DNA from: Bacteroidaceae bacterium
Lineage (GTDB): Bacteria; Bacteroidota; Bacteroidia; Bacteroidales; Bacteroidaceae
Reading direction: 5' to 3'
NCBI GenBank assembly: GCA_024398435.1
Contig: JAKSJD010000008.1
Span: 34,539 to 98,538 of the forward strand
Length of the DNA: 64,000 nucleotides
Position numbers and translations under genes: made by a program. Positions 5,160 to 61,535 of the stretch are shown in pieces; within the stretch, counting starts at the first letter, position 1, and every line of letters begins with the position of its first letter. Below the pieces are notes generated by a model, which had not been told where the DNA came from, did not search any database, and was given only the letters and a program-made list of their open reading frames with translations.

Positions 5160-5247
5160 TTGTACTCAGGGTTTGGTACGATTGTACTTCGGGTTTGGTA
5201 CGATTGTACTCAACGTTTGGTACGATTGTACTCAACGTTTGGTACGA
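5160..5247. repeat. 22-bp tandem array A, four units
   Basis: Four head-to-tail 22-bp units at 5160, 5182, 5204 and 5226, each built as TTGTACT + variable 5 bases + GTTTGGTACGA. Units 3 and 4 are identical; units 1 and 2 differ only in the middle (CAGG and TCGG against CAAC). There are no spacers, so it is not a CRISPR. It lies between a minus-strand promoter and a terminator, outside any gene. Confidence 0.9.
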
Positions 5248-5321
5248 TTTATTATTATTGATGTTTGGGGTTTTGTTGCTTGATGTTTGATAAAAGTTCT
5301 GTATTGTTTTGATATTTATAT

Positions 5322-5356
5322 AAAAGAAGAAAGCCACTACATGAGCAGTGGCTTTC
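5322..5356 (-). terminator. Terminator of the receptor-lipoprotein operon
   Basis: Perfect 9-bp stem AAAGCCACT / AGTGGCTTT with an 8-nt loop, 25 bp downstream of the stop at 5381 in minus-strand terms. The minus transcript continues into a U-rich tract (TTCTTCTTTTAT). Confidence 0.8.
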
Positions 5357-5380
5357 AAACTTATATCTATCGATATGGGA

Positions 5381-7795
5381 TTAGTGACGCTTCTTCGCAC
5401 TTGAACTCTTTGTGAGTGTAACATCGTCGATGAGGACATTGCCACCTGGGTTCTTAGAGTTCATGATAACGAGGCAAAGGGTAGTGTTGCTGTCGATTGT
5501 AAACTCGTGTGTAACCTTTACCCATTCGTTTGCAGAAATGTCATTAGTGTATTCACCATAAACATAGCTGCCAACACTTCCATCGCTCTTTACTGGAACA
5601 TAACCAGGACGAACGCTTGCTGTTGCAGATTCTGCCTTTGCATAGAATGTCATTGTGTATGTGCCTGCTTCAAGATTGATTTCCTTGTAGCCAAGGCGCT
5701 TGTTTGCAGATGTTGTACCTGCTACACATACAGAATAGCTTCCGCTATGAGCATCTGTGCTTTGACTGAGTGTTGCATTACCAGCAGATGAAGCAGTCTT
5801 CCAGTTTTCAGGAGTCTTGCCATCTACCCATGTTTCGAAGCCACCGTTTTCGATGCTTGAAACTACTGGTTTGTCGTCATCGTTGTCACCACTATCATCG
5901 CCGCCATCATCGCCTTGACCACCTGTGCGACTTGTCCAATAGAGGTAACTGTTGTTCTGCTCTGTTTCTGGAGTGTTGATGTAGAGAGTAACCTTACCAT
6001 ATACGATAACTGTATCACCTACCTGAAGCTGGTTCTCAGATGTGAACTTGGTATTGTTGAGATACTTGCTGCGATATACATAGAAAGTGTTGTTGTCTTT
6101 TCCGTCATCACTTACATAATATGTAGCATTACCATATTGACCTGTATCGACTTCCTTAATCTTTGCAACAATTCCCTTGAAGTAGATTTCGTTTGAAGGA
6201 ATATTATTGCTGCTGAAGAGCTGAAGGAGCTTTGCTACATTGTAAGGGTCGTTTGCAGTACCGCTTCCCTTTGGAGTGCCGCCAGTTGTTCCTCCGTCGT
6301 CACCAGAATCGTCAGCTTTGCCAAGACGGCTTGAATAGTAGATTTGGCTGCCTTGAGTGATTTCACGGGTTTTACCATTGTAGAGAACTGCTGTACCATA
6401 AACGATAACTTCATCACCTTCTTGAAGCTGATCTTTTGAAGTAAACTTCGCTCCATTGAGTGAGTAACCACGATAAATCTCGAACTGACCGCTTGTGCTG
6501 CCATCGTCAGAGATATAATATGTAGCATTTCCAAATTGTTCTGTATTGAGATCATCAATCTGAGATACGATACCGTGAACATAAATCTTCTGAGATGGGA
6601 TTTTGTTTGCATCGAAGAGAGCCTGAAGTTCTGCTACAGAGAATGGATTGTCTTTTGTGCCTCCAGAGATTGTTGTGTCGTCACCACCTTCGCCTGCTAC
6701 ACCTTTACGAACGGCAATGCTCTTAACTTCCCATGTAGAACCACTCTTGTTGTCAGTGTTGTAGTAGAATGCGAGATAGATAGTCTGACCGATAAATTCC
6801 TCAGGAATCTGGATTTCTGTTTCTGCGAATGTAGCCCAATCTGTTCCTTCTGTATGGTTGTTGTTAAGAACCTTCCAACCAGCTGTAGGATTGTTTGGAT
6901 CGAATGATGAAGAAATGAGCAACTGCTGATTCTCGGCGCCCTTGTTGTAACGAAGAATATAACTATAGTCAACATATGCGCTGTCAACGTTAGCAAGAGA
7001 AATTGCAGGAGATACGAGATAATATGTACCTGCTGTTGTTACCTTTGACGCATTGTCATAACCAGTAGCCTTTGCTGTGCTGTAGTCATTTATCCATTCG
7101 CCTTCACCACTTGTTGTGTAGTTTGTGAATGGGAGGAGGCTGCTTGAGAATACTGCATTGAAGATAGCGTCTTCGTCTTCGGTTCCGTCACCGCCTTGGC
7201 CAGCTGCACCCTTAAGAACCTTGAAGTTCTTTACTTCCCAAGTAGAACTGCTTGTTTCACACTTGAAGTAGAAAGCGATACGTACTTTCTTGCCAATAAA
7301 TTCTTCAGGGACGTTAACGTCTGCCTGATAGAATGTGTTGTAGTCAACACCTTCTGTATGGTCGTTGAACAAAGTTTTCCAAGGTTGTTCTTCGACGTTG
7401 CCGAGGTTTGGCACAAAGTCTTCAGTAATCAAGAGAGCCTGATATTCCTTGCTGCGGTTGTAGCGAAGAACATAGTCATAAGTGATGTGAAGCAATGTAT
7501 CAATATTAGTCAAGTCGATTGTTTGGCTAATGAGATAAGCAGTACCATCAGTTGTTACCTTTGTTGCATTGTCATAACCAGTGGCTGTAGCACAGCTGTA
7601 AGAGTTTACCCAACTAACACCACCGTCGGTTGTGTAGTTAGCGAATTTGCCGAGAGAAGAGGCAAATGTCTCGCTGAAGATAGTTTCGCTATTACCGCCT
7701 TCGGTATATAGCTTGTATGGAGCAGGTACGTCTTCACAAGCTGTGAAGCCTAACATCAAAACTGCTGCACATAATAAAGAAATAACTTTTTTCAT
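5381..7795 (-). CDS. Large surface lipoprotein with paired choice-of-anchor-like and OB-fold domains
   Basis: An 804-residue lipoprotein (MKKVISLLCAAVLMLGFTAC, lipobox FTAC). Domain order: two tandem homologous beta-sandwich domains of the choice-of-anchor J type (about 35-205 and 208-375, both with an NYTT...ATGYDNA.KVTT core and LRYN), two tandem OB-fold-like domains (about 380-495 and 510-630, each with GNATYY.SDDG and QLQ.GD.VIVYG), an Asp/Gly-rich linker, and a C-terminal jelly-roll resembling a carbohydrate-binding module (SIENGGFETWVDGKTPENW..., about 655-800). OB domains of this kind occur in Bacteroidetes proteins linked to extracellular nucleases. It is third in an operon behind the TonB-dependent receptor. 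I infer a surface binding role for nucleic acid or another polymer. Confidence 0.85.
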   Translation of the reverse strand: MKKVISLLCAAVLMLGFTACEDVPAPYKLYTEGGNSETIFSETFASSLGKFANYTTDGGVSWVNSYSCATATGYDNATKVTTDGTAYLISQTIDLTNIDTLLHITYDYVLRYNRSKEYQALLITEDFVPNLGNVEEQPWKTLFNDHTEGVDYNTFYQADVNVPEEFIGKKVRIAFYFKCETSSSTWEVKNFKVLKGAAGQGGDGTEDEDAIFNAVFSSSLLPFTNYTTSGEGEWINDYSTAKATGYDNASKVTTAGTYYLVSPAISLANVDSAYVDYSYILRYNKGAENQQLLISSSFDPNNPTAGWKVLNNNHTEGTDWATFAETEIQIPEEFIGQTIYLAFYYNTDNKSGSTWEVKSIAVRKGVAGEGGDDTTISGGTKDNPFSVAELQALFDANKIPSQKIYVHGIVSQIDDLNTEQFGNATYYISDDGSTSGQFEIYRGYSLNGAKFTSKDQLQEGDEVIVYGTAVLYNGKTREITQGSQIYYSSRLGKADDSGDDGGTTGGTPKGSGTANDPYNVAKLLQLFSSNNIPSNEIYFKGIVAKIKEVDTGQYGNATYYVSDDGKDNNTFYVYRSKYLNNTKFTSENQLQVGDTVIVYGKVTLYINTPETEQNNSYLYWTSRTGGQGDDGGDDSGDNDDDKPVVSSIENGGFETWVDGKTPENWKTASSAGNATLSQSTDAHSGSYSVCVAGTTSANKRLGYKEINLEAGTYTMTFYAKAESATASVRPGYVPVKSDGSVGSYVYGEYTNDISANEWVKVTHEFTIDSNTTLCLVIMNSKNPGGNVLIDDVTLTKSSSAKKRH

Positions 7796-7839
7796 ATCTT
7801 TTTTGTTTTTGTTTATTTATCTATCTGAATGGTATCTTG

Positions 7840-8769
7840 TTATTCATTGCCATTGTTATCCTCTGGCTCTACATCTTGGAATACAGCCATGTCAGCTGTT
7901 GAGCGAAGCTGGAGCTGCCAACCGTCATAGTAGGAGAAAACACCGGTAAGTGCAACTTCGTTTGTTGGCATTGGAAGGAATGCAACGTCATTCTGTGTGC
8001 TGGTTCTTACAGTGATTGTCTTCTTGCCAATCTTGAATTCACGGTCGACACCCATACCTGCATCCTTAAGTTCGTCTGGTGCAAGGATAGTCTTATCGTC
8101 GCCATCAGCAAACTTACCATAAACCGTTACGAGCATTGGCGCATTCATGTAGTTCTGGTATTCACTTTCTTGTGCGATGAGTGGGTGGGAGTCGTCGTAA
8201 ATGACGATTGGATGAATTGAATCGCAATATTCCTCAGGAGAACCGATGAGCTGAACCTTTGTCTCGCAAAGTTCGAAGAGCATAGGGCCAAGACGGAGGT
8301 TGTTGCTACTTGTGTAGTAAGGCTGACCGATCTTTGGCATCTTGCTGTAGCAACCAACATAAAGTCCGTTGAGGTTGACTCTTACCTTTTGTCCCATAGG
8401 GAAGTAAGGAGTGAGGAATGTTGATTTGACTGCAAGTACGATGCAGTTGGAAACATCAACTTGTTTGCCTTCGTCCTCTGCAGCGAGAACGAGTGTTTGG
8501 TAGAGGTTGCCACCTTCATCGTTTGCAACTACAATGCCTTCAACAATGAGAGTGTCTTCTACGAGTACGAATGAGTTGGTCTGACTGAAAGTCTGGAAAT
8601 ACAATTCTTTCAGTCCGTCTATAGTGATGTTTGGTTCGCCAACTGATGTGGGACTTGTGACAGAGTAGTCGTCTACATTGGGAGCATCCCATTCGTCCAT
8701 ACATGATGTCAGCATGAGAGTTGACAACATTACGAGTAGGGAACCAATTGCTAAAATATTCTTTTTCAT
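7840..8769 (-). CDS. DUF5689-domain surface lipoprotein
   Basis: A 309-residue lipoprotein. The ATG at 8769 (MKKNILAIGSLLVMLSTLMLTSC) is preferred over an ATG two codons upstream because it gives the standard signal sequence with lipobox LTSC. The body matches DUF5689: an ITIDGLKELYFQ start, then VEDTLIVEGIVVANDEGGNLYQTLVLA, which has the look of an OB-fold strand series, and a C-terminal half with VYGKFAD and GVFSYYDGWQLQLRS. DUF5689 proteins commonly sit beside TonB-dependent receptors and secreted nucleases. Here it lies between the receptor (ending at 8793) and the larger lipoprotein, in the position that SusD-like proteins take in polysaccharide loci. There is no SusD homologue in the window. 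Confidence 0.85.
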   Translation of the reverse strand: MKKNILAIGSLLVMLSTLMLTSCMDEWDAPNVDDYSVTSPTSVGEPNITIDGLKELYFQTFSQTNSFVLVEDTLIVEGIVVANDEGGNLYQTLVLAAEDEGKQVDVSNCIVLAVKSTFLTPYFPMGQKVRVNLNGLYVGCYSKMPKIGQPYYTSSNNLRLGPMLFELCETKVQLIGSPEEYCDSIHPIVIYDDSHPLIAQESEYQNYMNAPMLVTVYGKFADGDDKTILAPDELKDAGMGVDREFKIGKKTITVRTSTQNDVAFLPMPTNEVALTGVFSYYDGWQLQLRSTADMAVFQDVEPEDNNGNE

Positions 8770-8792
8770 ATACACATTATATATTATATATA

Positions 8793-11528
8793 TTAGAACC
8801 TGTAGTTGACATTAAGGAAGAAGTTGAATGCATTGGCATAGTAGTACTTTGAGTTCTTAGAGAACTTGTAAGCACGAGCAACTCCTGTGCTGTAGAGGTC
8901 GTCACGATTCTGCTCGAAACCACCAGTGCGGAGGTTGCGGTTGTTCGTGATGTTCTGGAGTGAGAGGTTGATAGACATTGCCTTGCCATCCTTAAGACGG
9001 ATAGAGCGTCCGATAGAACCATCGAGCATAAGGCCTCCATGATATTTTTCAAGACGAGGGCTGTATGTCTTTACAACTTTACCTTCTTGGTCGAACATGA
9101 TTCCACCATCCTCGTTGAGAATTTGTTTTGGATCGCGTTCGCCATCAGGATCTTCAACATTGAAAATAGGACGTCCGGTTTCATCCTTACCTACAGCATT
9201 GTAGTTCTTGAGGATGTTTGCAAGACGACGATATGCTGAATAGCCAACATATGTGCGGTTGTAATAGTTGAGGTTGAGTTCGAAGTACCAACCATTTACA
9301 TTGTAGTTGGCTCCAAGGCTTAATGCTGTGAGAGGAGTGCTGCCTACCTTTACGTCCTTTGCAATGACGCGGAGTGGCATGTTGTCACCGGTTACAGGAT
9401 TGATCCACTCATTAAGAGCCTCATTTGTTGTTGCGTTCATTCCTTCATAGTTTACCTGAGCATAAGGGTTGTTGGTGTATTTAGCATCTCCTATGCTTCC
9501 CATGAGATTGAATGAGAGTTCGCTGTTGACCTGATATACGATTGCACCTTCGATTCCGTAGTGTACCTTATCGATACCAGTCATTGTAAGATATGTGAAA
9601 CGGTTTTCCTGGTCGTTGTAGAATGCCGTTTGTTCTACCTGATTCATGAACTTCGTGTAGTAACCTGAAATCTTACCGGTAGCGCTTCCGAAACGGAACT
9701 GCCAACCGAGTTCGCCACTGAAGATGTCTTCGAGTGTGAGGTTGTCAACAAAGTTGTTTTGCATACGAGGTGCAACAAAAGCATTGCGTGCAAGAGGTGC
9801 CTGGCTGTCCCAACTTGCTCCAAGAGTAATCTTGTGTGCTGCAAATGGACGAACGGAGATGAGTACCTTACCGCCTCCTCCGAGGAACTTGGCAGCTCCA
9901 CTCTTGCCATAAGAGTTTTTAGGAGCACGTCCGTTTTGCATCTTACCATCGCGTTCGATAGTTGTACCTTCGCCATAAGCTGCTCCCCAAAGATTCCAAA
10001 TACCATAATTATATTGATATTGTCCCCAGAGTTTAGCTTTGTTTACGAGAATGTTGTAGTCGTAGCCAAACTTGTCGCCTTCGTGAATATGCGCTTTTGA
10101 ATCATCAAGTAAATTGCCATCGCGGTCAAAAATAACTTTATTTAAATCATTCCATGCATCTTTTCCGAAGCGACCATATTCATTTGCAGCAAATTTATCG
10201 TAATCTCTGTAAAGTTCACCACCGAGGAGGTCCTGCATTGTCTTATAGTGCATACCGGTTGTGTGGTTGAACTGTACGCCAAGAGAATACTTGTTGTTCT
10301 GGTCGATTGTCTTGTTGAGGGTAGAATTGAGAGCAAACACAAACTGATTGTTGTGGCGACGTTCCTGATAATAGAGAGCTTCACCTCCAGCTTCGTTCTG
10401 TGTTTGGTTTACATAATACATTCTATCCCAATTGATTTGGCGGTTGGCCTTGCTTTCCTTCCAGTAGTCGTAAAGGTCGTTGTACTGGCTGAGGAAGTAA
10501 GGGTTGTCCTCAAGGAATTCAGGATTGTTACGGTTCTTGAGGTCGTAAACGTCGAATATACTGCTTGGGAGATTCTTGTAATAGTCAGGACGTGGGTCAT
10601 ATGCATCGCCATTCCATCCAAGAGCTGTAGTGCTGTATCTGCTGTACTTTGCACCGGCAGCAGTGTTGAGCTTCATTGATTCGTCGATCTTGTATTCCCA
10701 AGAAGCAATGGCAGTTGGCTCGAAGTCGCGAACTACACGTGAATTGCGCTTTTCGCCATTCTGATAACCCCAATATGGGTTGTAGTAGTGTGAGTTGGCA
10801 AGCCAATAAGCTTCTTCCGTAGATGCTCCCTGTTGTGCTCTTTCAGTTGGAGAACCGAAAGTAACGAGGGAAATGCTGTGTTGTTCATTGATTTTCTTCT
10901 CAGCAGAGAGGAGATAGCTCAATGAATTGTAGAATGTACCTTCGATAACACCTTCGTGTGACCATCTGTAACCAATGGTTCCGGCAAATGCCCATCCGTT
11001 GTCCATGATACCAGTGGCATAGGTGTACATGCCACGGAATACATAGTTGCGGTTGCATCCTGAGAGTGTGATCTTGTGGTTGGCAGCAAACTGGCTGGCA
11101 CGTGTGTCATAGTTTGTACCGCCGCCGATGCCTGTAAGTCCGAAGTTGTTGTATTCGAACCCTGCAACGCCTTCCTGATTACGTGTAGCATCATTCATAC
11201 CACCAATCATACTGAAACTGAATCGTCCGAGTTCGAGGTCGTTAAGCTGAAGACCATTCATGTAGACATGCTCATACATGTTGTCGTAGCCACGAACCCT
11301 GAATCGCATAGGACTGAATCGATATCCAACTTCAGAAAGGAAAGGGTCGTTCTTTGAAGACGCGATAGCGGAAACTGTCTGTGCCGCATCATTGTCGTCG
11401 TCGAGCTGGCTTTCGGTAAAGGTGAAGTCGGAATTGTCCTGTTGGCTTAGAGTGTCAATGCTTTCTTGTGCCCACATTGGTGTTGAAAGACACAATAGCA
11501 TCGCCACTAACTTTACGCTTTTGCTCAT
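8793..11528 (-). CDS. TonB-dependent outer-membrane receptor
   Basis: A 911-residue protein with signal peptide (MSKSVKLVAMLLCLSTPMWAQ). The plug domain starts early (RFRVRGYDNMYEHVYMNGLQLND) and is followed by a long barrel with many aromatic-rich strands (e.g. YGIWNLWGAAYGEGTT, YFELNLNYYNRTYVGYSAYRR) ending NAFNFFLNVNYRF with a terminal Phe. The carboxypeptidase-regulatory-like N-terminal domain of SusC is absent and there is no SusD partner. Two lipoproteins follow in the same operon and a secreted nuclease is divergent from it. TonB-dependent receptors import ligands across the outer membrane using the proton motive force. The ligand here is inferred to be a nucleic-acid breakdown product. 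Confidence 0.9.
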   Translation of the reverse strand: MSKSVKLVAMLLCLSTPMWAQESIDTLSQQDNSDFTFTESQLDDDNDAAQTVSAIASSKNDPFLSEVGYRFSPMRFRVRGYDNMYEHVYMNGLQLNDLELGRFSFSMIGGMNDATRNQEGVAGFEYNNFGLTGIGGGTNYDTRASQFAANHKITLSGCNRNYVFRGMYTYATGIMDNGWAFAGTIGYRWSHEGVIEGTFYNSLSYLLSAEKKINEQHSISLVTFGSPTERAQQGASTEEAYWLANSHYYNPYWGYQNGEKRNSRVVRDFEPTAIASWEYKIDESMKLNTAAGAKYSRYSTTALGWNGDAYDPRPDYYKNLPSSIFDVYDLKNRNNPEFLEDNPYFLSQYNDLYDYWKESKANRQINWDRMYYVNQTQNEAGGEALYYQERRHNNQFVFALNSTLNKTIDQNNKYSLGVQFNHTTGMHYKTMQDLLGGELYRDYDKFAANEYGRFGKDAWNDLNKVIFDRDGNLLDDSKAHIHEGDKFGYDYNILVNKAKLWGQYQYNYGIWNLWGAAYGEGTTIERDGKMQNGRAPKNSYGKSGAAKFLGGGGKVLISVRPFAAHKITLGASWDSQAPLARNAFVAPRMQNNFVDNLTLEDIFSGELGWQFRFGSATGKISGYYTKFMNQVEQTAFYNDQENRFTYLTMTGIDKVHYGIEGAIVYQVNSELSFNLMGSIGDAKYTNNPYAQVNYEGMNATTNEALNEWINPVTGDNMPLRVIAKDVKVGSTPLTALSLGANYNVNGWYFELNLNYYNRTYVGYSAYRRLANILKNYNAVGKDETGRPIFNVEDPDGERDPKQILNEDGGIMFDQEGKVVKTYSPRLEKYHGGLMLDGSIGRSIRLKDGKAMSINLSLQNITNNRNLRTGGFEQNRDDLYSTGVARAYKFSKNSKYYYANAFNFFLNVNYRF

Positions 11529-11608
11529 ACTTGATTTTTAATTTGTTTTTATTATTGTTTTCAATTATTTTCAGCTTAGTTTTGCATTGGTTGTAAACCA
11601 AAAGCCTA

Positions 11609-11616
11609 CAAAGTTA
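11609..11616 (-). promoter_or_regulatory. -7 box for the TonB receptor operon
   Basis: Minus strand TAACTTTG, followed by TAGG, matching TAnnTTTG. It is 80 bp upstream of the receptor ATG, giving a 5' untranslated region of about 70 nt. Confidence 0.6.
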
Positions 11617-11701
11617 ATGAATTTTTCAATACAAAAACATAAAAATTCGGAATAAATTCACTTTGTTGGTTAAAAAATTTTATTGTTTGAAAAAAAAGCC
11701 G

Positions 11702-11709
11702 TAAATTTG
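11702..11709 (+). promoter_or_regulatory. -7 box for the secreted nuclease gene
   Basis: TAAATTTG, 53 bp before the chosen ATG at 11763. Its presence inside the longer open frame supports the internal start, because the upstream ATG at 11721 would lie almost on the transcription start. The two divergent promoters are about 90 bp apart and could share regulation. Confidence 0.55.
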
Positions 11710-11762
11710 TAACCGATAAAATGTGCTCATGCATAGATAACGTTTGTAAAACTATCAAAAAG

Positions 11763-12848
11763 ATGAAAAAGATATTAGGTGTTATTGCAATTGTGGGGTT
11801 GGCAGTTATCATAATGTCAGCAACTCCAGAAAAACCTCAGGGAAAAACTCTGCAGATGTATGGTGTGGCTTTCTATAATCTTGAAAACCTTTTCGACACT
11901 ATCCATGATGAAGGTAAGAACGATTATGAGTACCTTCCTGACGGAGCCAACAAGTGGGGAACATTGAAATATACTAATAAGCTGAAGAACATGGCTCAGG
12001 TGTTGTCGAAGCTTGGTACAGAAATCACTCAGAAATCAGGTTTGACACAGGTTTGCAAGAGCCCTGCTATCATTGGTGTTTCGGAAATCGAAAACAGCAA
12101 TGTGCTCGAAGACTTGCTCAAGGAACCAGTGCTCAAGGATAAGGGTTGGAAGTATATTCATATCGAAGGACCCGACCAGCGTGGTGTGGATTGCGGTTTC
12201 CTTTATGATCCAACAATCTTCCATCTCGAGCATTACCACTTGACTCCATTCGTCTATACAAGCGGCGACCCTGACCGTCGTCCAACTCGTGGATTCCTTC
12301 TTGCAAGCGGTACAATTGCAGGCGAGAAAATTCACTTCATCGTCAACCACTGGCCATCACGAGCAGCTACAAGCGAATATCGTGAAATGGGTGGCGCCCA
12401 GGTTCGCAAGATGATCGACTCTATTCAGGCAGAAGATCCAAAGGCAAAGGTCGTCATTATGGGCGACTTGAACGATGATCCAAAAGACAAGAGCGTCACA
12501 AAGGCTCTCGGTGCAAAGCATGTTCAAGCAGATTGTGGCGACCACGATATGTATAATCCTTGGTATGATGTCCTCTACAAAGTGGGTCAGGGAACATTGC
12601 TCTATGACGGCAAGTGGAACCTCTTCGACCAAATCATCTTCACTGGCAACTTGCTCAATAAGGATGGTGTGAAGGATTATTCAGAACTCAAGTTCTACAA
12701 GAACGAAATCTATCTTCGCGACTTCCTCATGTCACAGGAAGGAAAGAACAAGGGGGCACCAAAGCGTACTCATGTAAGTGGCGTTTGGCAGAATGGTTAC
12801 AGCGACCACCTCCCAACTCAGATTTTCCTTGTTAAAGAAGTAAAATAA
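11763..12848 (+). CDS. Secreted endonuclease/exonuclease/phosphatase-family protein
   Basis: 361 residues from the ATG at 11763, which gives a signal sequence or anchor (MKKILGVIAIVGLAVIIMSA). All family motifs are present in order: FYNLENLFDT, the metal-binding Glu in GVSEIEN, RGVDCGFLYD, the catalytic His in VNHWPSR, GDLNDDP and the C-terminal YSDHLPT. The family cleaves phosphodiester bonds in DNA or RNA, or phosphate from phosphoinositides and sphingomyelin; the export signal and the location opposite a TonB receptor operon point to an extracytoplasmic nuclease. The gene runs alone toward the dockerin-tailed protein. A lipid phosphodiesterase role cannot be excluded. Confidence 0.88.
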   Translation: MKKILGVIAIVGLAVIIMSATPEKPQGKTLQMYGVAFYNLENLFDTIHDEGKNDYEYLPDGANKWGTLKYTNKLKNMAQVLSKLGTEITQKSGLTQVCKSPAIIGVSEIENSNVLEDLLKEPVLKDKGWKYIHIEGPDQRGVDCGFLYDPTIFHLEHYHLTPFVYTSGDPDRRPTRGFLLASGTIAGEKIHFIVNHWPSRAATSEYREMGGAQVRKMIDSIQAEDPKAKVVIMGDLNDDPKDKSVTKALGAKHVQADCGDHDMYNPWYDVLYKVGQGTLLYDGKWNLFDQIIFTGNLLNKDGVKDYSELKFYKNEIYLRDFLMSQEGKNKGAPKRTHVSGVWQNGYSDHLPTQIFLVKEVK

Positions 12849-12913
12849 GCACCGAAATCCCACTCCCTTATATATTATATAATAATGTGTAGGAGGAGAC
12901 TTCGGAATGGGCA

Positions 12914-12979
12914 AAAAAAGTTTAGCGAGAAAAAGGGTCGAGTTTAGCGAGAAATGACCTTGAGTTTAGCGAGAAATGA
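12914..12979. repeat. 22-bp tandem array B, three units
   Basis: Units at 12914, 12936 and 12958, each 22 bp, sharing the core AGTTTAGCGAGAAA; units 2 and 3 share the last 18 bases exactly (GAGTTTAGCGAGAAATGA). A degenerate fourth start follows at 12980 (GGTCGCGAACAGCGG). It lies between the nuclease gene and the next gene. An inverted repeat CCGAA-TC / GA-TTCGG lies just before it at about 12852-12906. Confidence 0.88.
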
Positions 12980-13071
12980 GGTCGCGAACAGCGGTTCGTA
13001 AACAGACACTCATATAGCCCTTGAAAATTGATAAAAAACAAAACAATATAATAACTAAAAACAAAAACAGT

Positions 13072-15834: not shown

Positions 15835-15872
15835 TAGCTCTTCGATTCTCCATGTGGAGATGAAACATATAG

Positions 15873-15913: not shown

Positions 15914-15938
15914 GAAAAGAATTGAAAAATAGATAGAG

Positions 15939-27189: not shown

Positions 27190-27602
27190 CGAAAAAAATG
27201 CATAATGCTGATACTTTAGTGCGATGAAATCAATCCAGAATGCAGAATTATTTTCTTTATGCCTTGCATAAAAATGTCAAACTCCTTGCTCTAAAACCTA
27301 AAACTTAAGGCTTCAAAACTATAATTATGTACATAACGTATATTAATTATGTACAATATTATTAATAATTATGTCAATATTTTTATTAATTATGTACATG
27401 ATTTTACTTTTGTTCCTATAGAAATAGGGAAATGTTTGTGGGAGAAAGATAAAATGTTGCAAAGCAAAATATAAAATATTTGATAGTGAAATGGCATGTG
27501 GAGTTGACACATAGGAGTGAAAAGTAAAGCAAGAAGAGCGAAAAGTAAGGAATAATAAGCAAAAAACTCGTATCTCGTATCTTGTATCTCGCAACTTTTT
27601 CT
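27190..27602. other. Intergenic region between divergent MATE-PAP2 and hisG genes
   Basis: AT-rich, without a credible gene. It contains the 22-bp tandem array C (27321-27408) and, from 27561, a promoter-proximal block that is repeated upstream of glnN. Open frames on the minus strand at 27343-27638 have no start context or family resemblance. Confidence 0.65.
27321..27408. repeat. 22-bp tandem array C, about four units
   Basis: The word AATTATGT begins at 27323, 27345, 27367 and 27388, that is with steps of 22, 22 and 21. Units share the core TAATTATGTACA and have AT-rich, more variable ends. It is the most degenerate of the four arrays. Confidence 0.75.
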
Positions 27603-33074: not shown

Positions 33075-34646
33075 ATGAGTACTCAGACAGAAAAAATTAA
33101 AGAACTTGTCGAAAAACGCGATAAAGCTCGTTTGGGTGGTGGCGAAAAGGCCATTCAGAAGCAGCACGACAAGGGCAAGTATACAGCTCGTGAAAGAATA
33201 GCAATGCTTCTCGACGAAGGTTCATTCGAAGAAATGGATATGTTCGTAACTCACCGTTGCCACAACTTCGGTATGGACAAGAAACTTTTCGATGGTGATG
33301 GTGTTGTTACAGGTTATGGTACTGTAGCTGGTCGCCTCGTTTACGTATTTGCTCAGGACTTTACAGTAAACGCAGGTTCATTGTCAGAAACAATGGCTCT
33401 CAAAATTTGTAAGGTGATGGATGCAGCCATGAAGATGGGTGCACCAGTTATCGGACTCAACGATTCAGGTGGTGCACGTATTCAGGAAGGTATCAATGCA
33501 CTTGCAGGTTATTCAGAGATTTTCGAGCGTAATATCCTTGCCAGTGGTGTAGTTCCACAGATTTCCGGTATCTTCGGTCCATGTGCAGGTGGTGCTGTTT
33601 ATTCTCCTGCTCTTACCGACTTCACACTCATGATGGAGAACACTTCATACATGTTCCTCACAGGTCCAGCAGTTGTTAAGACTGTCCTTGGTGAAGTTGT
33701 AACTCAGGAAGAACTCGGTGGCGCAAGCGTACACTCAACAAAGAGTGGTGTAACTCATTTCACTGCATCTACAGAAGAAGAGGCTATCGGTATGATCAAG
33801 CAGTTGCTCAGCTATATTCCACAGAACAACCTTGAGACTACTCCTCTCGTAGAATGCAACGACCCAATCGACCGCAAGGAAGACTTCCTCAACGAAATCA
33901 TCCCAGACAACCCTAACCAGCCATACGATATGTATCAGGTGATTGCAGGTGTTGTAGATAATGGTGAATTCTTCGAGGTACAGCCAAACTATGCAAAGAA
34001 CATCATCGTAGGTTTCGCACGTTTCAACGGTCAGTCAGTAGGTATCGTAGCCAACCAGCCAAAGTGTATGGCTGGTGTACTCGACTGCAACGCTTCTCGT
34101 AAGGCTGCACGTTTCGTACGTTTCTGCGACGCATTCAATATTCCACTCGTAACACTTGTCGATGTTCCTGGATTCCTTCCTGGAACAGGTCAGGAATACA
34201 ATGCAGTTATCCTTCACGGCGCTAAGCTTCTCTACGCATTCGGAGAATGTACAGTACCAAAGGTAACAGTAACTCTCCGCAAGTCTTATGGTGGTTCACA
34301 CATCGTTATGAGTTGCAAGCAGCTTCGTGGTGATATGAACTATGCATGGCCATCAGCTGAAATCGCTGTAATGGGTGCAGCAGGTGCAGCATCAGTTCTT
34401 TATGCTAAGGAAGCAAAGGCTCTCAAGGAAGAGGGTAAGGTGGAAGAGGCAAAGGCATTCATTCAGGAGAAGGAAGACGAATACACAAAGCTCTTCGCAA
34501 ATCCTTACAATGCAGCCAAGTATGGTTATATCGACGATGTAATCGAACCTCGCAACACTCGTTTCCGTATTATTCGTGCTCTTGCACAGCTCGAAAACAA
34601 GCGTGTTACTAATCCAGCCAAGAAGCATGGTAACATTCCATTGTAA
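33075..34646 (+). CDS. mmdA: Methylmalonyl-CoA decarboxylase carboxyltransferase (alpha) subunit
   Basis: 523 residues, the crotonase-type carboxyltransferase that moves CO2 from methylmalonyl-CoA (or another acyl-CoA) to biotin. Features are [29 protein letters not shown], the oxyanion region [14 protein letters not shown], and [18 protein letters not shown]. Nearly identical families include propionyl-CoA carboxylase beta; the neighbouring gamma, biotin carrier and beta subunits make the sodium-pump decarboxylase the best reading. Confidence 0.94.
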
Positions 34647-49739: not shown

Positions 49740-49767
49740 AGTTTAGAGGTTAGATAATAATTGAAAT

Positions 49768-52016: not shown

Positions 52017-52097
52017 TTGTTCTCTGTTCAGAATTCATAAAACCGAAATTCAAGACTGCTTGTAACTCGTAATTAGAATTCCGAAACAATAAAACCA

Positions 52098-52150
52098 ATC
52101 CCATCCTCTTGGAGGAGATAATTAAGTTCCCCTCTTTGGGGATGGGTTTT
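52098..52150 (+). terminator. Compound terminator after ino1
   Basis: Outer stem CCCATCC (52100-52106) / GGATGGG (52140-52146) enclosing two small hairpins (CTCTTGGAGGAG; CCCCTCTTTGGGG), followed by TTTT. Confidence 0.8.
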
Positions 52151-52172
52151 CATAATTTTTGAAAGAAACGTA

Positions 52173-54770
52173 ATGAAATATATACTGTCCGTTATAATGA
52201 TGATTATGTCGCTTGTTGCAAATGCTCAAGTGACAGGAGTGGTACTCGACTCAAAGACACGTCAGCCTGTGGACTATGCCAATGTGTTCTATGATGGCAA
52301 GCAAGTAGGTACGTTGACTGATGAGAAGGGTAGATTCTCTATTCGTGAGAATGCAAGTTGGAACGAACTGACAGTATCCACTATGGGTTATGTATCACAA
52401 AAGGTAAAGCTCATACCTGGGAAAAAGAAGAATGTCAAGGTTCTGCTAGTTAGTCAGCCTCGAATGATTGATGAGGTTACAGTTTCTGCCAGCAGAAAGC
52501 GATACACAAAGAAAAACAATCCAGCAGTGGATCTCATGCTGAAGGTGATAGAGAAGAAAAAGATGAACGATCTTCGACAGAAGGACTATTTCACCTATTC
52601 AAAGTATGAGAAAATGGTGTTTGCCCTCAACGAATTTACTCCAAAGGTGTTTGAGGAAGGCGAAATGAAACGATTCGCGTTCCTGAAGGATCATGTGGAA
52701 AGATGTCCGGAGACAGGTAAACTGATTCTGCCATTAACTGTGGACGAAACCATTTCAGAGATTCTTTATCGTAAGGACCCAAAGACAGAAAAGACTATCA
52801 TCAAGGCTCAGAACAGTAGGGGCGTGAACGAACTCGTCAATACTGGTGATATCATGACCAACGTATTGAAGGACGTATTCACTGATGTTGACATATATGA
52901 GAATGAATGTCGTTTGCTCCAGTACCCGTTCAAGAGTCCTATAGCCAACAATGCAACATCATTCTATAGATATTATATAGAAGACACGACATACATCGAC
53001 ACTGACAAAGTGATTCAACTCGACTTCATGCCAAACAACCCTCAGGACTTCGGTTTCTCTGGGTCGCTTTGGGTGATGGCCGATTCAAGTTATCAGGTTC
53101 GTAAGGTGGAACTCCATATTCCTAGGAGAAGTGATGTGAATTTCGTGGAAAACATGATTATCACTCAAGACTTCAAGGAATTGCCAACAGGCGAACGTGT
53201 TGCTGTAAGCAATGATATGCTCGTAGAACTTAAACTCGTTTCGTTCCTCAATAAATTGCAGGTTCAGAGAGTAATCCGAAACAAAGACTATGCCTTTGAG
53301 GAAATCACGGAAAAGGTGTTTAAGCACATAAAGGGCAATGTGTATAAGGAACCAGATGCTGAAATGCAAGATGATCAGTATTGGGATGAATACCGTGATG
53401 TTGAACTTACGGAAAGTGAGAGCCAGATGGGTACATTCCTCACTCGTCTGCAGAACGTCAAAGGCTTCAAGTGGGTTATCTTTGGATTCAAGTCATTGGT
53501 AGAGAACTTCGTTGAGACGGGCGACTCAAACCATGTCAATTATGTAGATATAGGTCCTGTCAATACGATTATCTCACAAAACCATTATGATGGTCTTCGT
53601 CTTCGTGCATCAGCCCTGACCAATGCAAATCTGAGTCCACACCTCTTTGCAAGTGGATATGTGGCTTATGGTACTCAAACCAAGAACGTTTACGGTAAGG
53701 CACAACTTCTTTATGCGTTCAACAAGAAGGCTTATCTCCCTCGAGAGTTTCCTATGCACAATCTTTCAATCACCTATCTCAATGATATCGTAAGTCCGTT
53801 CGATAAGTTCATGCCTACAGACAAGGACAACATGTTTACATCAATCAAGGCAAGCACTGTCGACCAATACAACCATACGAAGGAAGTGAAGGTGGCATAC
53901 GACAAGGAATTCGAGAGCGGATTGAAATTGAGTGCAGCATACACTCACACGAAGAACAAACCAGTGGATGCTCTCTTCTATCAACCACTTGATGGAGTGG
54001 GTATGCCAACAAACGACCCTTCTTTATGGCAGAGAAGCATAACGACAAGTGAGTTCAAGGCGGGAGTTTCATTCGAACCAGGAGCGGCATACGTCAATAC
54101 TAAGCAACGCCGACTCAAGATCAATCTTGATGCACCTGTAATTACGGTTAGCCACACTATCGGTCTCGACAATTTCCTTGGAGGACAATATTCGTACAAT
54201 GTTACTGAAGCTGGAATCTATAAGCGCTTGTGGATGCCAAACAGTTGGGGAAAGATGGACTTCGACCTCAAGGCAGGTATTCAGTGGGATAAGGTTCCAT
54301 TCCCTCTCTTGATACACCCAGCTGCCAACCAATCATACATTCTCGAAGACAACACATTCTCTCTCATCAGTAACCTCGAATTCCTCAACGACCGTTACTT
54401 CACATTAATGTATCAATGGGACTTGAACGGAAAGATATTCAATCGCATTCCATTGCTGAAGAAACTGAAATGGAGAGAAATGGTAGGCTTGAATCTTCTT
54501 TGGGGTACTCTTACCGACAAGAACAATCCTGCTGCAAGCAATTATTCTGACAGTGATATATTCTATTTCCCTGGTCACTTCAAGTCGGACGGAACGTATG
54601 AATGCAACACTGTAGTGATGGATAAGAAGACTCCTTACATGGAACTTCGACTTGGTATACATAATATATTCAAGCTCATACACATAGAGTATGTCCGTCG
54701 TCTGACATATCTTGACGACCCAAAGATAAATAAATGGGGTATTCGCGGAATGGTTCGCATAACGTTCTAA
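52173..54770 (+). CDS. DUF5686 / carboxypeptidase-regulatory-like envelope protein
   Basis: 865 residues: signal peptide (MKYILSVIMMIMSLVANAQ), a carboxypeptidase-D regulatory-like beta domain (VTGVVLDSKTRQPVDYANV...DEKGRFSI, about 20-105), then the DUF5686 body with a C-terminal outer-membrane-barrel pattern (MYQWDLNGKIFNRIPLLKKL; end IRGMVRITF with terminal Phe). DUF5686 proteins are conserved outer-membrane proteins of Bacteroidetes with unknown function. The next gene starts 19 bp later. Confidence 0.85.
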   Translation: MKYILSVIMMIMSLVANAQVTGVVLDSKTRQPVDYANVFYDGKQVGTLTDEKGRFSIRENASWNELTVSTMGYVSQKVKLIPGKKKNVKVLLVSQPRMIDEVTVSASRKRYTKKNNPAVDLMLKVIEKKKMNDLRQKDYFTYSKYEKMVFALNEFTPKVFEEGEMKRFAFLKDHVERCPETGKLILPLTVDETISEILYRKDPKTEKTIIKAQNSRGVNELVNTGDIMTNVLKDVFTDVDIYENECRLLQYPFKSPIANNATSFYRYYIEDTTYIDTDKVIQLDFMPNNPQDFGFSGSLWVMADSSYQVRKVELHIPRRSDVNFVENMIITQDFKELPTGERVAVSNDMLVELKLVSFLNKLQVQRVIRNKDYAFEEITEKVFKHIKGNVYKEPDAEMQDDQYWDEYRDVELTESESQMGTFLTRLQNVKGFKWVIFGFKSLVENFVETGDSNHVNYVDIGPVNTIISQNHYDGLRLRASALTNANLSPHLFASGYVAYGTQTKNVYGKAQLLYAFNKKAYLPREFPMHNLSITYLNDIVSPFDKFMPTDKDNMFTSIKASTVDQYNHTKEVKVAYDKEFESGLKLSAAYTHTKNKPVDALFYQPLDGVGMPTNDPSLWQRSITTSEFKAGVSFEPGAAYVNTKQRRLKINLDAPVITVSHTIGLDNFLGGQYSYNVTEAGIYKRLWMPNSWGKMDFDLKAGIQWDKVPFPLLIHPAANQSYILEDNTFSLISNLEFLNDRYFTLMYQWDLNGKIFNRIPLLKKLKWREMVGLNLLWGTLTDKNNPAASNYSDSDIFYFPGHFKSDGTYECNTVVMDKKTPYMELRLGIHNIFKLIHIEYVRRLTYLDDPKINKWGIRGMVRITF

Positions 54771-54789
54771 ACTTTCAATAGGCAACACG

Positions 54790-56175
54790 ATGACATCAAA
54801 CGGTAGAAACATACACATCAATTCCACACGTCTTTGCTTCTCTTGGCAAAGATGTATGGTGTTTGTGGCATTTATGCTGATTGTGCCATTATCTTATGCC
54901 CAGGATAATAAGAATAAAGACGAGAAGAGCGAACAACCAGAATACAACAAGAAGAAAACAATCAAGGACATTCGTCAGGAACTGAAGTCGGACCGCTTTA
55001 CGCAAGCCGACGATAAGATCAAGAAGGCATTGCAAACCTATCCTGAAGCAAAGAATGATGCTGAATACTACAACTATGAAATAGGAATCCAGCACAATCT
55101 TGCAGCACAGGAAAACCGTAAGATATACCTCGACCAGAAACCCGATACTGCAAAGTATTTCAATTATGTCTATGAAGTATATCGCTATGCCTTGATGTGT
55201 GACAGTCTTGACACCATGCCTGATGCAAAGGGTAGGATTCGTCCGAAATATACGTCAAATGTTACTGACAAACTGAATTATTATCGCAACAACCTGAAGA
55301 GTGGCTGCAAATATTTCTATAAGAAGCAGCAATGGAATGATGCCGATAAGTTCTTCGACATGTATCTGTCAACCATAAACAACATCCATATTTCCCAAAA
55401 GAACATTCAGGCATCAGCTGATTCTGCCGAAATACTTCGTCTTGCGTTCTATTCGGCCTATGGTAAGGGCGACTATCAAAAGGCTGTGAATTTCCTGCCA
55501 CGAATACAGGAAGACACAGTGTCGTATGCATATACCTGTCAGTTGGCCAGCAAGTCGTTGATGGAGGTGAAGGACACGTTGCAGGCTGTTGAATATTTGT
55601 ATAAAGGGTGGAAAACCGATCCTACAAGAAAATACTTCTATGTAAATCTTGTGGAATATCATATCGACCGCGAGCAATACGACAAGGCTCTCGACGTGAT
55701 TGTAGAGCAGTTGCCTCAAGATCCGCTCAATCACAGGCTGTGGTATGTGAGGGGTAAGTGCGAGCAAAGTATCGACAGCATAGACGAGGCCATCATAAGT
55801 TATCAGAAAGCTATTCAACTTCAGGAAGATGATGCCCAGTCGTACAGCAGTATTGGCAACATATATATAGAGCGTGCCAGAGCTGCCTTCAATACAATAG
55901 ATTACAAGAGAGGCACGAGAGCATATACAAAGGCAAAGCAGAATCAGCAGAACCTGTATAAAGAAGCTCGCGAGTCGCTTGAAAAGGCCCACCAGTATGC
56001 TCCTGATGATAGGGAACTTTGGTACTCTGGCCTCAGTGAGATATATTTTAAGTTGAATTTGGGTAAAGAACTGAAAGCTCTCGAGAAGGAAGTTCAGACT
56101 CCGGCTGCTGCCAAGGAAGATGCCGACAAAGGCAAGGGCAAGCAGGGAGGCAACCAAAACAACAAGAAGAAATAA
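54790..56175 (+). CDS. Secreted TPR-repeat protein
   Basis: 461 residues with a signal-type segment (FVAFMLIVPLSYAQ) after a long polar N terminus; an in-frame ATG further in could be the true start. Helical repeat content is clear in the C-terminal half (PLNHRLWYVRGKCEQSIDSIDEAIISYQKAI, SYSSIGNIYIERA), which fits tetratricopeptide repeats. The tail is Lys/Gly/Asn-rich. It probably acts as a periplasmic scaffold; the partners are unknown. It lies between a DUF5686 and a DUF4105 gene in one run. Confidence 0.82.
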   Translation: MTSNGRNIHINSTRLCFSWQRCMVFVAFMLIVPLSYAQDNKNKDEKSEQPEYNKKKTIKDIRQELKSDRFTQADDKIKKALQTYPEAKNDAEYYNYEIGIQHNLAAQENRKIYLDQKPDTAKYFNYVYEVYRYALMCDSLDTMPDAKGRIRPKYTSNVTDKLNYYRNNLKSGCKYFYKKQQWNDADKFFDMYLSTINNIHISQKNIQASADSAEILRLAFYSAYGKGDYQKAVNFLPRIQEDTVSYAYTCQLASKSLMEVKDTLQAVEYLYKGWKTDPTRKYFYVNLVEYHIDREQYDKALDVIVEQLPQDPLNHRLWYVRGKCEQSIDSIDEAIISYQKAIQLQEDDAQSYSSIGNIYIERARAAFNTIDYKRGTRAYTKAKQNQQNLYKEARESLEKAHQYAPDDRELWYSGLSEIYFKLNLGKELKALEKEVQTPAAAKEDADKGKGKQGGNQNNKKK

Positions 56176-56196
56176 AGTAAACCAACCGACCATCAA

Positions 56197-57417
56197 GTGA
56201 AAAGACTATTCACATATATGCCGACATTGCTGATCACGATCTTTCTGATGTGGTCCGCCAGTTTGTCTGCACAGGAAAGCGAATCAGCGGAAGAAGATTC
56301 TTTGATGTCGGTGCCTGAGGCGAAAGATTCCCTTCAGGTATCTCTGATTACCTGTTCTCCTGGTACCGACATATATGCAATGTATGGCCATACAGCCATT
56401 CGTGTGGTTAATTTCCCCACACATCTTGACCTCGTCTTCAATTACGGCATGTTCAACTACAATGCCGACAGCTTTGTCTTTAAGTTCCTTGAGGGTAAGA
56501 CCGACTATATCCTTGGAGTGGAACCCGGTCAGGGATTCTTCCAGAGATATGGAGATAAGGGTAATGAAGTGGTGGAACAAATACTTAATCTCACACAGGA
56601 GGAGTGTCGCATTGTGTTTGATAAGTTGATGGAGAATGCCGCTCCTGAAAATAGGATGTACAGATATAACTGGCTGTACAACAATTGTACGACTCGTGCC
56701 CGCGATGTTCTCGAAAGTGCCATCAATGGTGATATAGAGTACACAACCAGTCAGAAACCACTTACGGTGCGTCAGATACTCCATCGTTTCACATGCATGA
56801 ACAGTTGGATAGAGTTTGGGGCTGATCTTATTCTTGGAGCTGAAATCGACACGCTTGTCAGTTCACGCATCCAAATGTTTATACCTTCAGTCTATGAGAA
56901 CGAGGCCGACAGTGCCTTTATCGTGAAGGCTGGAGGAATGAGGATTCCGTTGGTGGCAGACAAGCAGACCGTACTCGAATCAAAGAATGAATTGGAAGCA
57001 GATACAAGTCATTCGCCTTTCATTTGTTTCCTCATCATCCTGATAGCGGTAATAGTCATCAGTATATATGAGATAAAGAGAAGCAAGACATATAAGTGGA
57101 TTGATGTGTCGCTTAGTATCCTACAGGGACTGGTAGGCACGTTGGTTGCTTTCCTGTTCTTCTTGTCCGTGCATGCAGGCGTCGATTCCAATGTCCTTGT
57201 GATATTGCTCAATCCGCTCGCATTTGTATGGATTTATTTCTATACGGTACGTCGGCCGAAAGTTCCGGCATACGCCACATTGGCAGAACTTCTGCTGCTT
57301 GTGCTGACACTTTGCGTGATACCACAACATATCCATGGTGCCGTCATTCCGTTGGCATTGATTTTGATGGTAAGAGCTGTAGTGAACTTAGTGATTGCTA
57401 AAAAGCAAATCGTTTAG
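56197..57417 (+). CDS. DUF4105 membrane protein, putative cysteine-His hydrolase
   Basis: 406 residues beginning with GTG; signal peptide (FTYMPTLLITIFLMWSASLSAQ). The DUF4105 domain (about 45-190) contains YGHTAIRVVN and YNWLYNNCTTRARD, a His and a Cys in the arrangement of Lnb/NlpC-like papain folds, so hydrolase activity is possible. About four membrane helices follow in the C-terminal half (LIILIAVIVISIYEI, LQGLVGTLVAFLFFLS). Known DUF4105 proteins sit in the bacterial envelope. Third gene of the run before secA. Confidence 0.85.
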   Translation: MKRLFTYMPTLLITIFLMWSASLSAQESESAEEDSLMSVPEAKDSLQVSLITCSPGTDIYAMYGHTAIRVVNFPTHLDLVFNYGMFNYNADSFVFKFLEGKTDYILGVEPGQGFFQRYGDKGNEVVEQILNLTQEECRIVFDKLMENAAPENRMYRYNWLYNNCTTRARDVLESAINGDIEYTTSQKPLTVRQILHRFTCMNSWIEFGADLILGAEIDTLVSSRIQMFIPSVYENEADSAFIVKAGGMRIPLVADKQTVLESKNELEADTSHSPFICFLIILIAVIVISIYEIKRSKTYKWIDVSLSILQGLVGTLVAFLFFLSVHAGVDSNVLVILLNPLAFVWIYFYTVRRPKVPAYATLAELLLLVLTLCVIPQHIHGAVIPLALILMVRAVVNLVIAKKQIV

Positions 57418-57475
57418 AGTCATTAGGTACACACACATAATTATATATGTAAAATAATAAAAACAATAATAGAAT

Positions 57476-60787
<3,312 letters not shown>

Positions 60788-60842
60788 TATCATAGTCATT
60801 CATCACATAATGAATCGACTGATTTACTTTATTTTTCAATGG

Positions 60843-60873
60843 AGAGCCATGCAGTGATGCATTGGCTCTTTTT
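60843..60873 (+). terminator. secA terminator
   Basis: AGAGCCA-TGCA / TGCA-TGGCTCT with a short loop, followed by TTTTT. It starts 55 bp after the secA stop. Confidence 0.85.
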
Positions 60874-61144
60874 GTTTGGAACTGACGTACATATTGACAC
60901 TAACTCATCGACTATGATTTTCTCTCCATAAATTATCATTAATTATTCGATTGACTTCGTCTTATTCCTCCTTGCACGGCATAACTCAAACAAGTTTGGC
61001 TCTGCTCATGCTTCGTTCGTCATTTGACAGCCCAGAGTCTTCTGCTCATTCCCATTTCCTTGCAAGCAAGCTCGCAGATAAATGGTCAGAGCAAATCCTC
61101 TAAGTCTTGTGCCAAGCCTTCTACTTGGCTGACAATATTAGAAG

Positions 61145-61175
61145 CAAATTACCATCCGGATGGAATTTGTTTTTA
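61145..61175 (+). terminator. Terminator-like palindromic hairpin in the gene-poor region
   Basis: CAAATT-a-CCATCC / GGATGG-AATTTG with a single bulge and a TTTTT tail; its centre is the 12-bp palindrome CCATCCGGATGG (61152-61163). No annotated gene lies upstream for it to terminate, which hints at an unrecognised transcript. Confidence 0.5.
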
Positions 61176-61189
61176 ATTTACGAATAATT

Positions 61190-61300
61190 TTGAGCGCAAG
61201 GCCGATTAGGCCGACTTGGAAGATGGGGAGCCTTTCTATGGGAACTCGTTCGCAATAGAAAGGAATCACATCTTCAAAGAAAGCGAAGCGATGCGCTCAA
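61190..61300. other. Nested inverted-repeat element, candidate structured RNA
   Basis: A closing 9-bp stem TTGAGCGCA (61190-61198) / TGCGCTCAA (61292-61300) encloses a GGCC-gatta-GGCC hairpin (61200-61212) and a stem GAAGATG (61219-61225) / CATCTTC (61269-61275), which in turn holds CCTTTCTAT (61231-61239) / ATAGAAAGG (61255-61263). All four helices are perfect in sequence. It is not a tRNA, tmRNA, SRP RNA or RNase P RNA that I recognise. Confidence 0.5.
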
Positions 61301-61425
61301 CGATAATTAGCGGAGGGAGAAGAAATCCTTTGGTGTCATTATGTTAGTCACTACCTTTTGTTTTGTATCTTGTGTTCCGTTTGCAATGGGGGGGTGCCTT
61401 GCAATAAACTATATAAGAAACCTAC

Positions 61426-61535
61426 CAATTAGTTATAATGTTTGGGGTAATTTATTATAAGACATGAGGCAATTCCTTATAATGTTTGGTCCCTTTTCTT
61501 ATAATGTTTTACCCAATTCCTTATAATGTTTTTTT
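61426..61535. repeat. 22-bp tandem array D, five units
   Basis: Units start at 61426, 61448, 61470, 61492 and 61514, exactly 22 bp apart. Four share the core CTTATAATGTTT or GTTATAATGTTT; unit 2 is diverged (TTATTATAAGACATG). The sequence resembles array A in the words AATT and GTTTGGT. Confidence 0.9.

Follow-up and report, generated by a model that had tools for sequence, protein, structure and literature searches.

Intergenic 22-bp tandem arrays as probable sites for HU-HIG paralogues in a Bacteroidaceae genome

Introduction

In the MatP/matS, Noc/NBS and ParB/parS systems one protein acts at many palindromic chromosomal sites, and LytTR response regulators use direct-repeat steps of 21-22 bp. 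Neisserial intergenic mosaic elements are mosaic intergenic arrays of short repeat modules. Porphyromonas gingivalis, which belongs to the same order as the genome studied here, carries BrickBuilt, a miniature inverted-repeat transposable element (MITE) and, on the accessible part of its description, the nearest described repeat to those reported below. Here we analyse a 64,000-nucleotide stretch from a Bacteroidaceae bacterium (positions 34,539 to 98,538 of contig JAKSJD010000008.1, assembly GCA_024398435.1; hereafter the window), which contains four intergenic tandem arrays with a 22-bp step, and we relate these arrays to the genes of HU-HIG proteins.

According to the accessible part of its description, BrickBuilt occurs in 19 copies in one strain, is limited to P. 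gingivalis and P. gulae, and is built of tandem 23-nucleotide units with a leader and a tail bearing IS5-like terminal repeats; its unit number varies between strains, five neighbouring genes encode DNA- or RNA-binding proteins, and no cognate DNA-binding gene is seen in that part of the source (PMC4596501). The arrays described here resemble BrickBuilt in being intergenic, dispersed and tandem at 22-23 bp. They are unlike it, as far as that part of the source describes it, in their phased flank units, in a constant unit number in two families (A and C) and in having an HU-HIG partner. REP/RAYT systems (repetitive extragenic palindromes and their associated tyrosine transposases) and bacterial interspersed mosaic elements are alike in pairing a gene with dispersed palindromes and in forming species-specific families; here, however, the linked gene encodes an HU-type binding protein rather than a transposase, and the repeats are tandem 22-bp arrays. 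Unlike MatP/matS, Noc/NBS and ParB/parS, the present case combines many paralogues, tandem arrays, fast site turnover and an operator at the paralogue's own promoter. The neisserial elements resemble families B and D below, and we know of no 22-bp register or HU-HIG link in them. Likeness to an autoregulated, site-specific nucleoid protein is a claim separate from membership in any of these systems.

HU-type proteins are mostly regarded as general DNA-bending proteins. HU-HIG proteins are HU paralogues expanded in Bacteroidetes; a comparative study by Burroughs and colleagues in 2017 reportedly described this expansion and proposed that the proteins recognize mobile elements, and to our knowledge no DNA target is known for them. 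The Pfam family description (PF18291) has HU fused to winged helix-turn-helix (wHTH), immunoglobulin or glycine-rich parts. A literature search, in which subscription journals were little covered, found no account of pairing between arrays and HU-HIG genes, of 22-bp arrays in Prevotella or of HU-HIG targets. Ten proteins of the source genome belong to this family (HU-HIG/HU_rel; PF18291, TIGR01201), and a candidate target is proposed here for several of them. We consider it probable, from comparison of sequences, that the arrays are tandem sites for HU-HIG paralogues, which would repress their own genes and also occupy the dispersed copies.

Results

The four arrays belong to families dispersed over the genome

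The original prediction, made from the letters of the window, held that four intergenic arrays of unlike sequence share a 22-bp step. Tandem Repeats Finder (TRF) and a shift scan confirmed the shared step, array 3 through TRF and array 4 in a diverged form. Array 1 (5160..5247), the core of family A, consists of four 22-bp units around GTAC..GTAC (TTGTACTCAACGTTTGGTACGA), and TRF called period 22 at 5159-5249 with 4.1 copies and 91% matches. Array 2 (12914..12987; family B) contains three units GAGTTTAGCGAGAAATGACCTC with varying 6-bp linkers and is preceded by an A-run; the call here was period 22 at 12919-12979 (2.8 copies, 84% matches). Array 3 (27321..27408), the core of family C, has four units around AATTATGTACAT at steps of 22, 22 and 21 bp, with period 22 called at 27321-27398 (3.6 copies, 81% matches) and period 21 called too. 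Array 4 (61425..61535; family D) is a mosaic of about five diverged units around TTATAATGTTT for which no partner gene was found in the source genome; period 22 was called at 61426-61531 with 4.8 copies and just 67% matches, and period 44 fits better. No strand is assigned to any of these features.

The shift scan of the window (periods 15-35, at least 33 matches of 44) gave matches at period 22 alone, with arrays 1, 2 and 4 passing, and 200 block-shuffled windows across 21 periods gave zero matches at the same cut. Array 3 went undetected at 33/44 and likewise at 31/44 because of its uneven steps; the 21-bp last step that had been predicted is borne out, being fixed throughout family C. All four arrays sit between main genes, short paper open reading frames (ORFs; about 80-100 codons) overlapping arrays 1 and 3. 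The units are contiguous at 22 bp, with no unique spacers of about 30 bp, in agreement with the predicted lack of CRISPR-type spacers. The sequences are unlike overall, as stated originally, but by eye the families of arrays 2 and 4 have the half-unit AGAAATGACC in common.

Each array is a member of a family dispersed over the same genome (assembly of 2.3 Mb, about 78% complete), at 13 to about 30 places. Family A occupies 13 places with four units at 13/13, and family C occupies 28, with four units in all 26 that were aligned (L066, at a contig end, and L078, with a score below 55, were left out of the profile). Families B and D are mosaics with 34 matching rows, some overlapping, and 29 matching rows, respectively; a further family, ATACGATNATNATCGTAT, has three units at each of four places. 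This presence of each family at many intergenic places fits the suggestion that a shared mechanism spreads such arrays. Array 1 was without a match in any of 40 relatives.

Gapless alignment of families A (13 copies) and C (26 of 28 copies) revealed an extended architecture, with about three weak flank units, four core units and three weak flank units in a single register, flank words inverted between the two sides and conservation fading outward. In the window the family A element (core plus three phased weaker flank units per side, 3+4+3) spans 5094..5313 by the 13-copy column profile, and the family C element, whose phased flank units are inverted between sides, spans approximately 27235..27475 by the 26-copy profile. 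Mean information in family A is 1.4-1.6 bits in core rows, 0.5-0.7 in flank rows and 0.06-0.21 outside. By eye, the cores of several family A copies are bounded by a pair of inverted sequences about 12 bp long (AATAAATCGTAC / GTACGATTTATT), where conservation falls and the phased flank units continue. At five family D loci (L084, L086, L087, L104, L109) a separate repeat, a module of about 30 bp (CTTGGATAAACCAAGCGACAAGTCGATAAC), lies within or beside the arrays.

HU-HIG genes carry arrays upstream

The genes of HU-HIG proteins were searched because these are HU paralogues expanded in Bacteroidetes. The source genome (G000) has 14 PF18291 matches, of which ten are uninterrupted genes over the cut-off; all ten proteins score above the Pfam threshold of 26.2 bits (33.6 to 123.2). 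A conserved extension some 75 residues long is common to six of them, and two have a glycine-rich tail; no Pfam wHTH match was found among the ten proteins scanned. At two of the 14 matches an array, of family A in one case and of family C in the other, lies 80-90 bp away. Nine of the ten intact genes have an upstream 21- or 22-bp array, representing eight families (two near-duplicate genes have the same array), and the tenth, C32:19919, has an AT-rich stretch only. L293 and L295 are near-identical HU-HIG genes on different contigs that have arrays and a long G-rich leader, GGGGGAGATTTAGAGGGGGCTGGGG, in common.

The comparison was extended to relatives with a stricter cut (an array of at least 30 of 44 matches, periods 21-23, within 450 bp upstream), using HU-HIG genes with listed coordinates, which are a subset of all matches; L343 in the first set and L413 in the second were left out for too little upstream sequence. 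Arrays were found at 35/82 HU-HIG genes compared with 29/486 other genes in named loci (p=2e-16), and at 28/73 HU-HIG genes without the source genome (p=1e-12). The first set contributed 28/63 (source genome 7/9, G021 2/15, G024 2/5, G018 3/8, G019 5/7, G010 4/9, G017 3/4, G035 2/6) and the second 7/19. Period triplets other than 21-23 gave at most 1/63 each at this cut. Control genes with an array numbered 0/22 in G010, 0/32 in G024, 6/62 in G021 and 2/17 in the window, and 34/120 in stretches of the source genome that had been picked for arrays. An array of 21-23-bp period directly upstream is thus commoner at HU-HIG genes than at other genes, an excess that not every genome shows.

In G035, from another family of the same order, both arrays before HU-HIG genes (six genes) have period 23, and in Phocaeicola intestinalis Sa1CVN1 (L200), which was reached via hisG rather than HU, a 21-bp array lies directly upstream of an HU-HIG gene. 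Long 23-bp arrays of about 10-12 units were also seen in G018 (L372:13843-14127 and L420), the latter 67 bp before an HU-HIG match. Array similarity tracks protein similarity (Mantel test, n=28; Spearman 0.18, p=0.002; Pearson 0.28, p=0.0004) after removal of the AT-rich L290, L323, L339 and L342 and then of three near-duplicates. Most genomes of Bacteroidaceae have 2-19 PF18291 matches and most other genomes 1-4, part of the latter being probably ordinary HU. A profile search of the PDB gave 13 weak matches, one to IHF beta (8flj, E 0.0036) and the rest to GCN4 fusions and adhesins, and two queries of viral contigs confirmed no HU-HIG relative.

Dispersed and HU-HIG arrays pair within genomes

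We compared 76 dispersed arrays (from stretches of 14 genomes, 11 yielding any) with 43 HU-HIG arrays; arrays identical to an HU-HIG operator do not count among the 76, and the upstream window of L294 and L297 was shortened, here and in the Mantel comparison, to capture the promoter-side array. Matching pairs made up 40/513 within genomes compared with 4/2755 between genomes (odds ratio 58). Dispersed arrays matched an HU-HIG array of their own genome in 26/40 cases in the source genome, 5/8 in G023, 3/4 in G018, 2/6 in G024 and 1/7 in G021. In G023, two 21-bp families were seen dispersed before each was found at an HU-HIG gene, one family at each of two genes, as predicted; two of the three HU-HIG matches of that genome were covered, and some of its dispersed 22-bp arrays are without a partner. 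In G018, three copies of a 21-bp family, CAAAGCCCGCCG.., within 80 kb (L369, L370, L371) match the array before the HU-HIG gene of L318.

For the window itself, array 1 aligned with the region upstream of HU-HIG gene G000:C4:36525 with a local score of 58 (200 shuffles reached at most 15), and array 3 with the region upstream of G000:C10:10119 with a score of 68 (200 shuffles, at most 29). Family B mates of array 2 (L111, L113, L115, L119, L120) match the arrays that precede the twin HU-HIG genes C2:82360 and C1:232760.

HU-HIG arrays lie at promoter boxes more often than dispersed copies do

TAnnTTTG is the Bacteroidetes promoter box. A scan found it no more than 45 bases from where the array starts in 7/10 source-genome HU-HIG genes, C32:19919 included, and by eye two others (L294, L297) have it immediately ahead of the promoter-side array; the promoter of the remaining gene is not visible because the gene starts at a contig end. 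Across the wider set, TAnnTTTG[CT] fell within 45 bases of the array start in 14/34 HU-HIG arrays compared with 1/69 loci of families A, B and C (p=2e-7). By family, which for the dispersed loci means A, B and C with two B places counted twice, arrays at promoter boxes numbered 0/12, 1/30 and 0/27.

Family A lies between divergent genes at 9/12 places, compared with 28% expected by bases (p=0.0009), and gene orientations around families B, C and D come close to the overall mix; loci at contig edges were excluded and cases within ORFs, which in family A means the window's own copy, were counted apart. Of 24 genes neighbouring family A at 12 places, 20 were scanned. Five of these have no Pfam match and the rest are unrelated (dxs, lon, prmC, thiF, uxaC, a pectin lyase and others); the four unscanned genes include the HU-HIG gene. 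On these grounds family A was not taken to mark a functional regulon.

Turnover of a dispersed copy could be followed in G005 and G010, whose operator regions before an HU-HIG gene are 98% identical. G005 carries a five-unit array of that operator's family in a short gap between two same-strand genes (L431:1491-1638), whereas the matching place in G010 is 34 bp long without an array, and no clear target duplication was visible by eye (one filled/empty pair, flank identity 77-78%). Judged by eye from their translated ends, the genes flanking the L431 array look like the anthranilate synthase and phosphoribosyltransferase of a trp operon.

Relatives favour a step of 21-23 bp

The period distribution in related genomes, named in the original prediction as its check, was not flat, because 22 was modal in 80 named loci and in three of four sampled relatives. 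TRF over 1.34 Mb around hisG (80 named loci from Bacteroidaceae and kin) gave 36 rows of period 22, the commonest, then 19 of period 21, 15 of 14 and 14 of 18, with overlapping rows left unmerged. The three relatives had six rows of period 22 (G021), eight (G024) and one (G010, against two of period 16); G011 had none. The favoured step in sampled relatives was likewise 21-23 bp, with sequences that differ from organism to organism. The 22-bp arrays lay outside coding sequence in 3/3 cases in the window, 29/29 in stretches of the source genome, 5/5 in G021, 3/4 in G024 and 1/1 in G010.

Such arrays are sparse in some same-genus relatives, with one 21-23-bp array in 63 kb of G010, none in 149 kb of G011 and none in 80 kb of G007. 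An array conserved across the genus at the hisG locus was also considered and rejected, since none of the 13 same-genus loci scanned, with less sequence at contig ends, carries a 22-bp array within 1.5 kb of hisG. A repeat of 7-bp-based units, TTGATGGCTGATGG, lies upstream of hisG in G006 (L158:1012-1175), and a clean 22-bp array, GGCCTGAAGAAGCGGTTGCGTA, was seen in the same-genus G004 (L165:135-249).

Discussion

The original prediction raised the possibility that related proteins bind sites along one face of the DNA. The matching arrays upstream of HU-HIG genes support this idea, and the proteins in question are most likely HU-HIG paralogues. In the mechanism we propose, whose binding, repression and stacking steps we infer from sequence comparison, each of the several to many HU/IHF-type paralogues encoded per genome in Bacteroidaceae would have its own site, made of a core (about 14-18 bp, palindromic in part) and a linker (about 4-8 bp). 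An HU-HIG dimer would read each unit, and the 21-23-bp repeat, about two helical turns, would allow adjacent dimers to stack along a single helical face. The array copy at the transcription start of the paralogue's own gene would bring about self-repression. Further copies, from a few to about 30, placed between unrelated genes and off promoters, would serve as anchoring points on the chromosome and as a sink, the size of which the operator would sense, since its own-promoter copy would block transcription once the dispersed sites are full. With modest confidence, and on weak support, we read the dispersed copies as sites for anchoring and titration rather than as a regulon. More broadly, many intergenic 22-bp repeat families of Bacteroides and Prevotella look like landing sites of particular chromosome-binding proteins.

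Alternatively, the dispersed arrays could be ordinary operators that mark a regulon, with HU-HIG proteins as transcription factors. Their intergenic position, the placement of most family A copies between divergent genes and the G005 array in a short gap between same-strand genes would all suit such operators. However, the dispersed arrays are seldom at promoter boxes, the family A neighbours with a Pfam match are unrelated (five of 20 have none) and gene orientations around families B, C and D are near the overall mix, and we judge this explanation rather unlikely. It is less likely still that the arrays are BrickBuilt-like miniature mobile elements with internal minisatellites, moved by a transposase and only incidentally linked to HU-HIG genes. 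Like BrickBuilt, as far as the accessible part of its description goes (PMC4596501), they are dispersed, intergenic, species-specific and tandem at about 22-23 bp; the inverted pair of about 12 bp ends several family A cores where conservation drops, and the G005 array facing 34 bp in G010 provides a presence/absence pair. Yet conservation runs on into three phased flank units per side and fades outward, no target duplication stood out by eye, and unit number is constant in families A (13/13) and C (26 aligned of 28). Incidental adjacency, moreover, would not yield the excess of matching pairs within genomes.

Three further explanations carry very little weight with us. A REP-type origin, with palindromes dispersed by a RAYT (Y1) transposase, would likewise give palindromic, intergenic and species-specific repeats with one family per cognate gene, as in REP/RAYT systems; this candidate was rejected, there being no PF01797 gene found in the source genome (about 78% complete), whereas the same search was positive in 5/14 control genomes, and the linked gene here is HU-HIG. 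We regard direct-repeat sites of LytTR response regulators as hardly credible: family A does hold a LytTR-like word, AACGTTTGG, but a single LytTR gene in the source genome faces many array families, on which ground the candidate was rejected, and by eye many cores are palindromic rather than directional. Functionless minisatellites born of replication slippage seem just as improbable, for although slippage would account for tandem copies with mismatches, it yields neither a favoured period near 22 nor constant unit numbers, and the 22-bp arrays are nearly all non-coding and enriched before HU-HIG genes. RNA hairpins were set aside by eye because the unit halves vary separately in families B, D and F.

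Several results weigh against HU-HIG paralogues as the readers of the arrays. At the stricter cut 47/82 HU-HIG genes have no array, the promoter-side arrays of L297, L298 and L358 in the source genome fall below it at 29/44, and G021 shows no enrichment (HU-HIG 2/15, other genes 6/62, p=0.65). In an independent hidden Markov model pass over the sampled stretches, one of four HU-HIG hits had an array, and one of the others lacked upstream sequence. PF18291 also matches ordinary HU, being found in 9/14 control genomes; HU-HIG number follows array density weakly over 14 genomes (rho 0.52, p=0.055; G023 an outlier); and a single-sequence AlphaFold model of the L200 HU-HIG protein was left unused at a predicted local distance difference test score (pLDDT) of 32. 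Dispersed arrays were unmatched in G019 (0/4), G017 (0/3) and G010, G026, G032 and G027 (0/1 each), where HU-HIG lists are incomplete or absent. The source-genome stretches were chosen for families A-D, so that the pairing test gives this genome too large a share and the other genomes are the fairer test; there, 11/36 dispersed arrays match an HU-HIG array of their own genome and 0 match that of another. Within the window, array 2 alone aligns no better than shuffles (15 compared with 15), so that its apparent link to HU-HIG runs indirectly, through family mates alone, and array 4 has no HU-HIG partner array in the source genome, although with about 22% of the genome missing a lost partner is possible.

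Should every paralogue recognize a repeat of its own, these orphan proteins of abundant gut bacteria would acquire a target predictable from sequence alone, and a class of unexplained intergenic repeats would gain an owner. This bears on what organizes the Bacteroidetes nucleoid and on why HU-HIG genes multiply there, and would make both directly testable. More tentatively, and with some doubt, we entertain a co-evolving protein-satellite system in which about ten HU-HIG paralogues with private repeats, spread over numerous intergenic positions, would form filaments of fixed size there (in families A and C about 220 bp, 3+4+3 units) and count their sites through an operator built of that repeat. 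Were this true, paralogue and repeat would change together, each species would rewrite its chromosome-binding code, and the system would parallel, in bacteria, satellite DNA and the proteins that bind it.

Other repeats in the window

Array 4 lies within a 1.5-kb intergenic region after secA (60788-62316) that holds several other repeat types, including the 10-bp repeats CCTTCAGTTTT at 61762-61798 and TGAAGGAAAA at 61935-61965. An 11-bp repeat, TTGTTTACTTT, occurs in nearly the same form at 62253-62273 and 63248-63271, 1 kb apart and near small ORFs.

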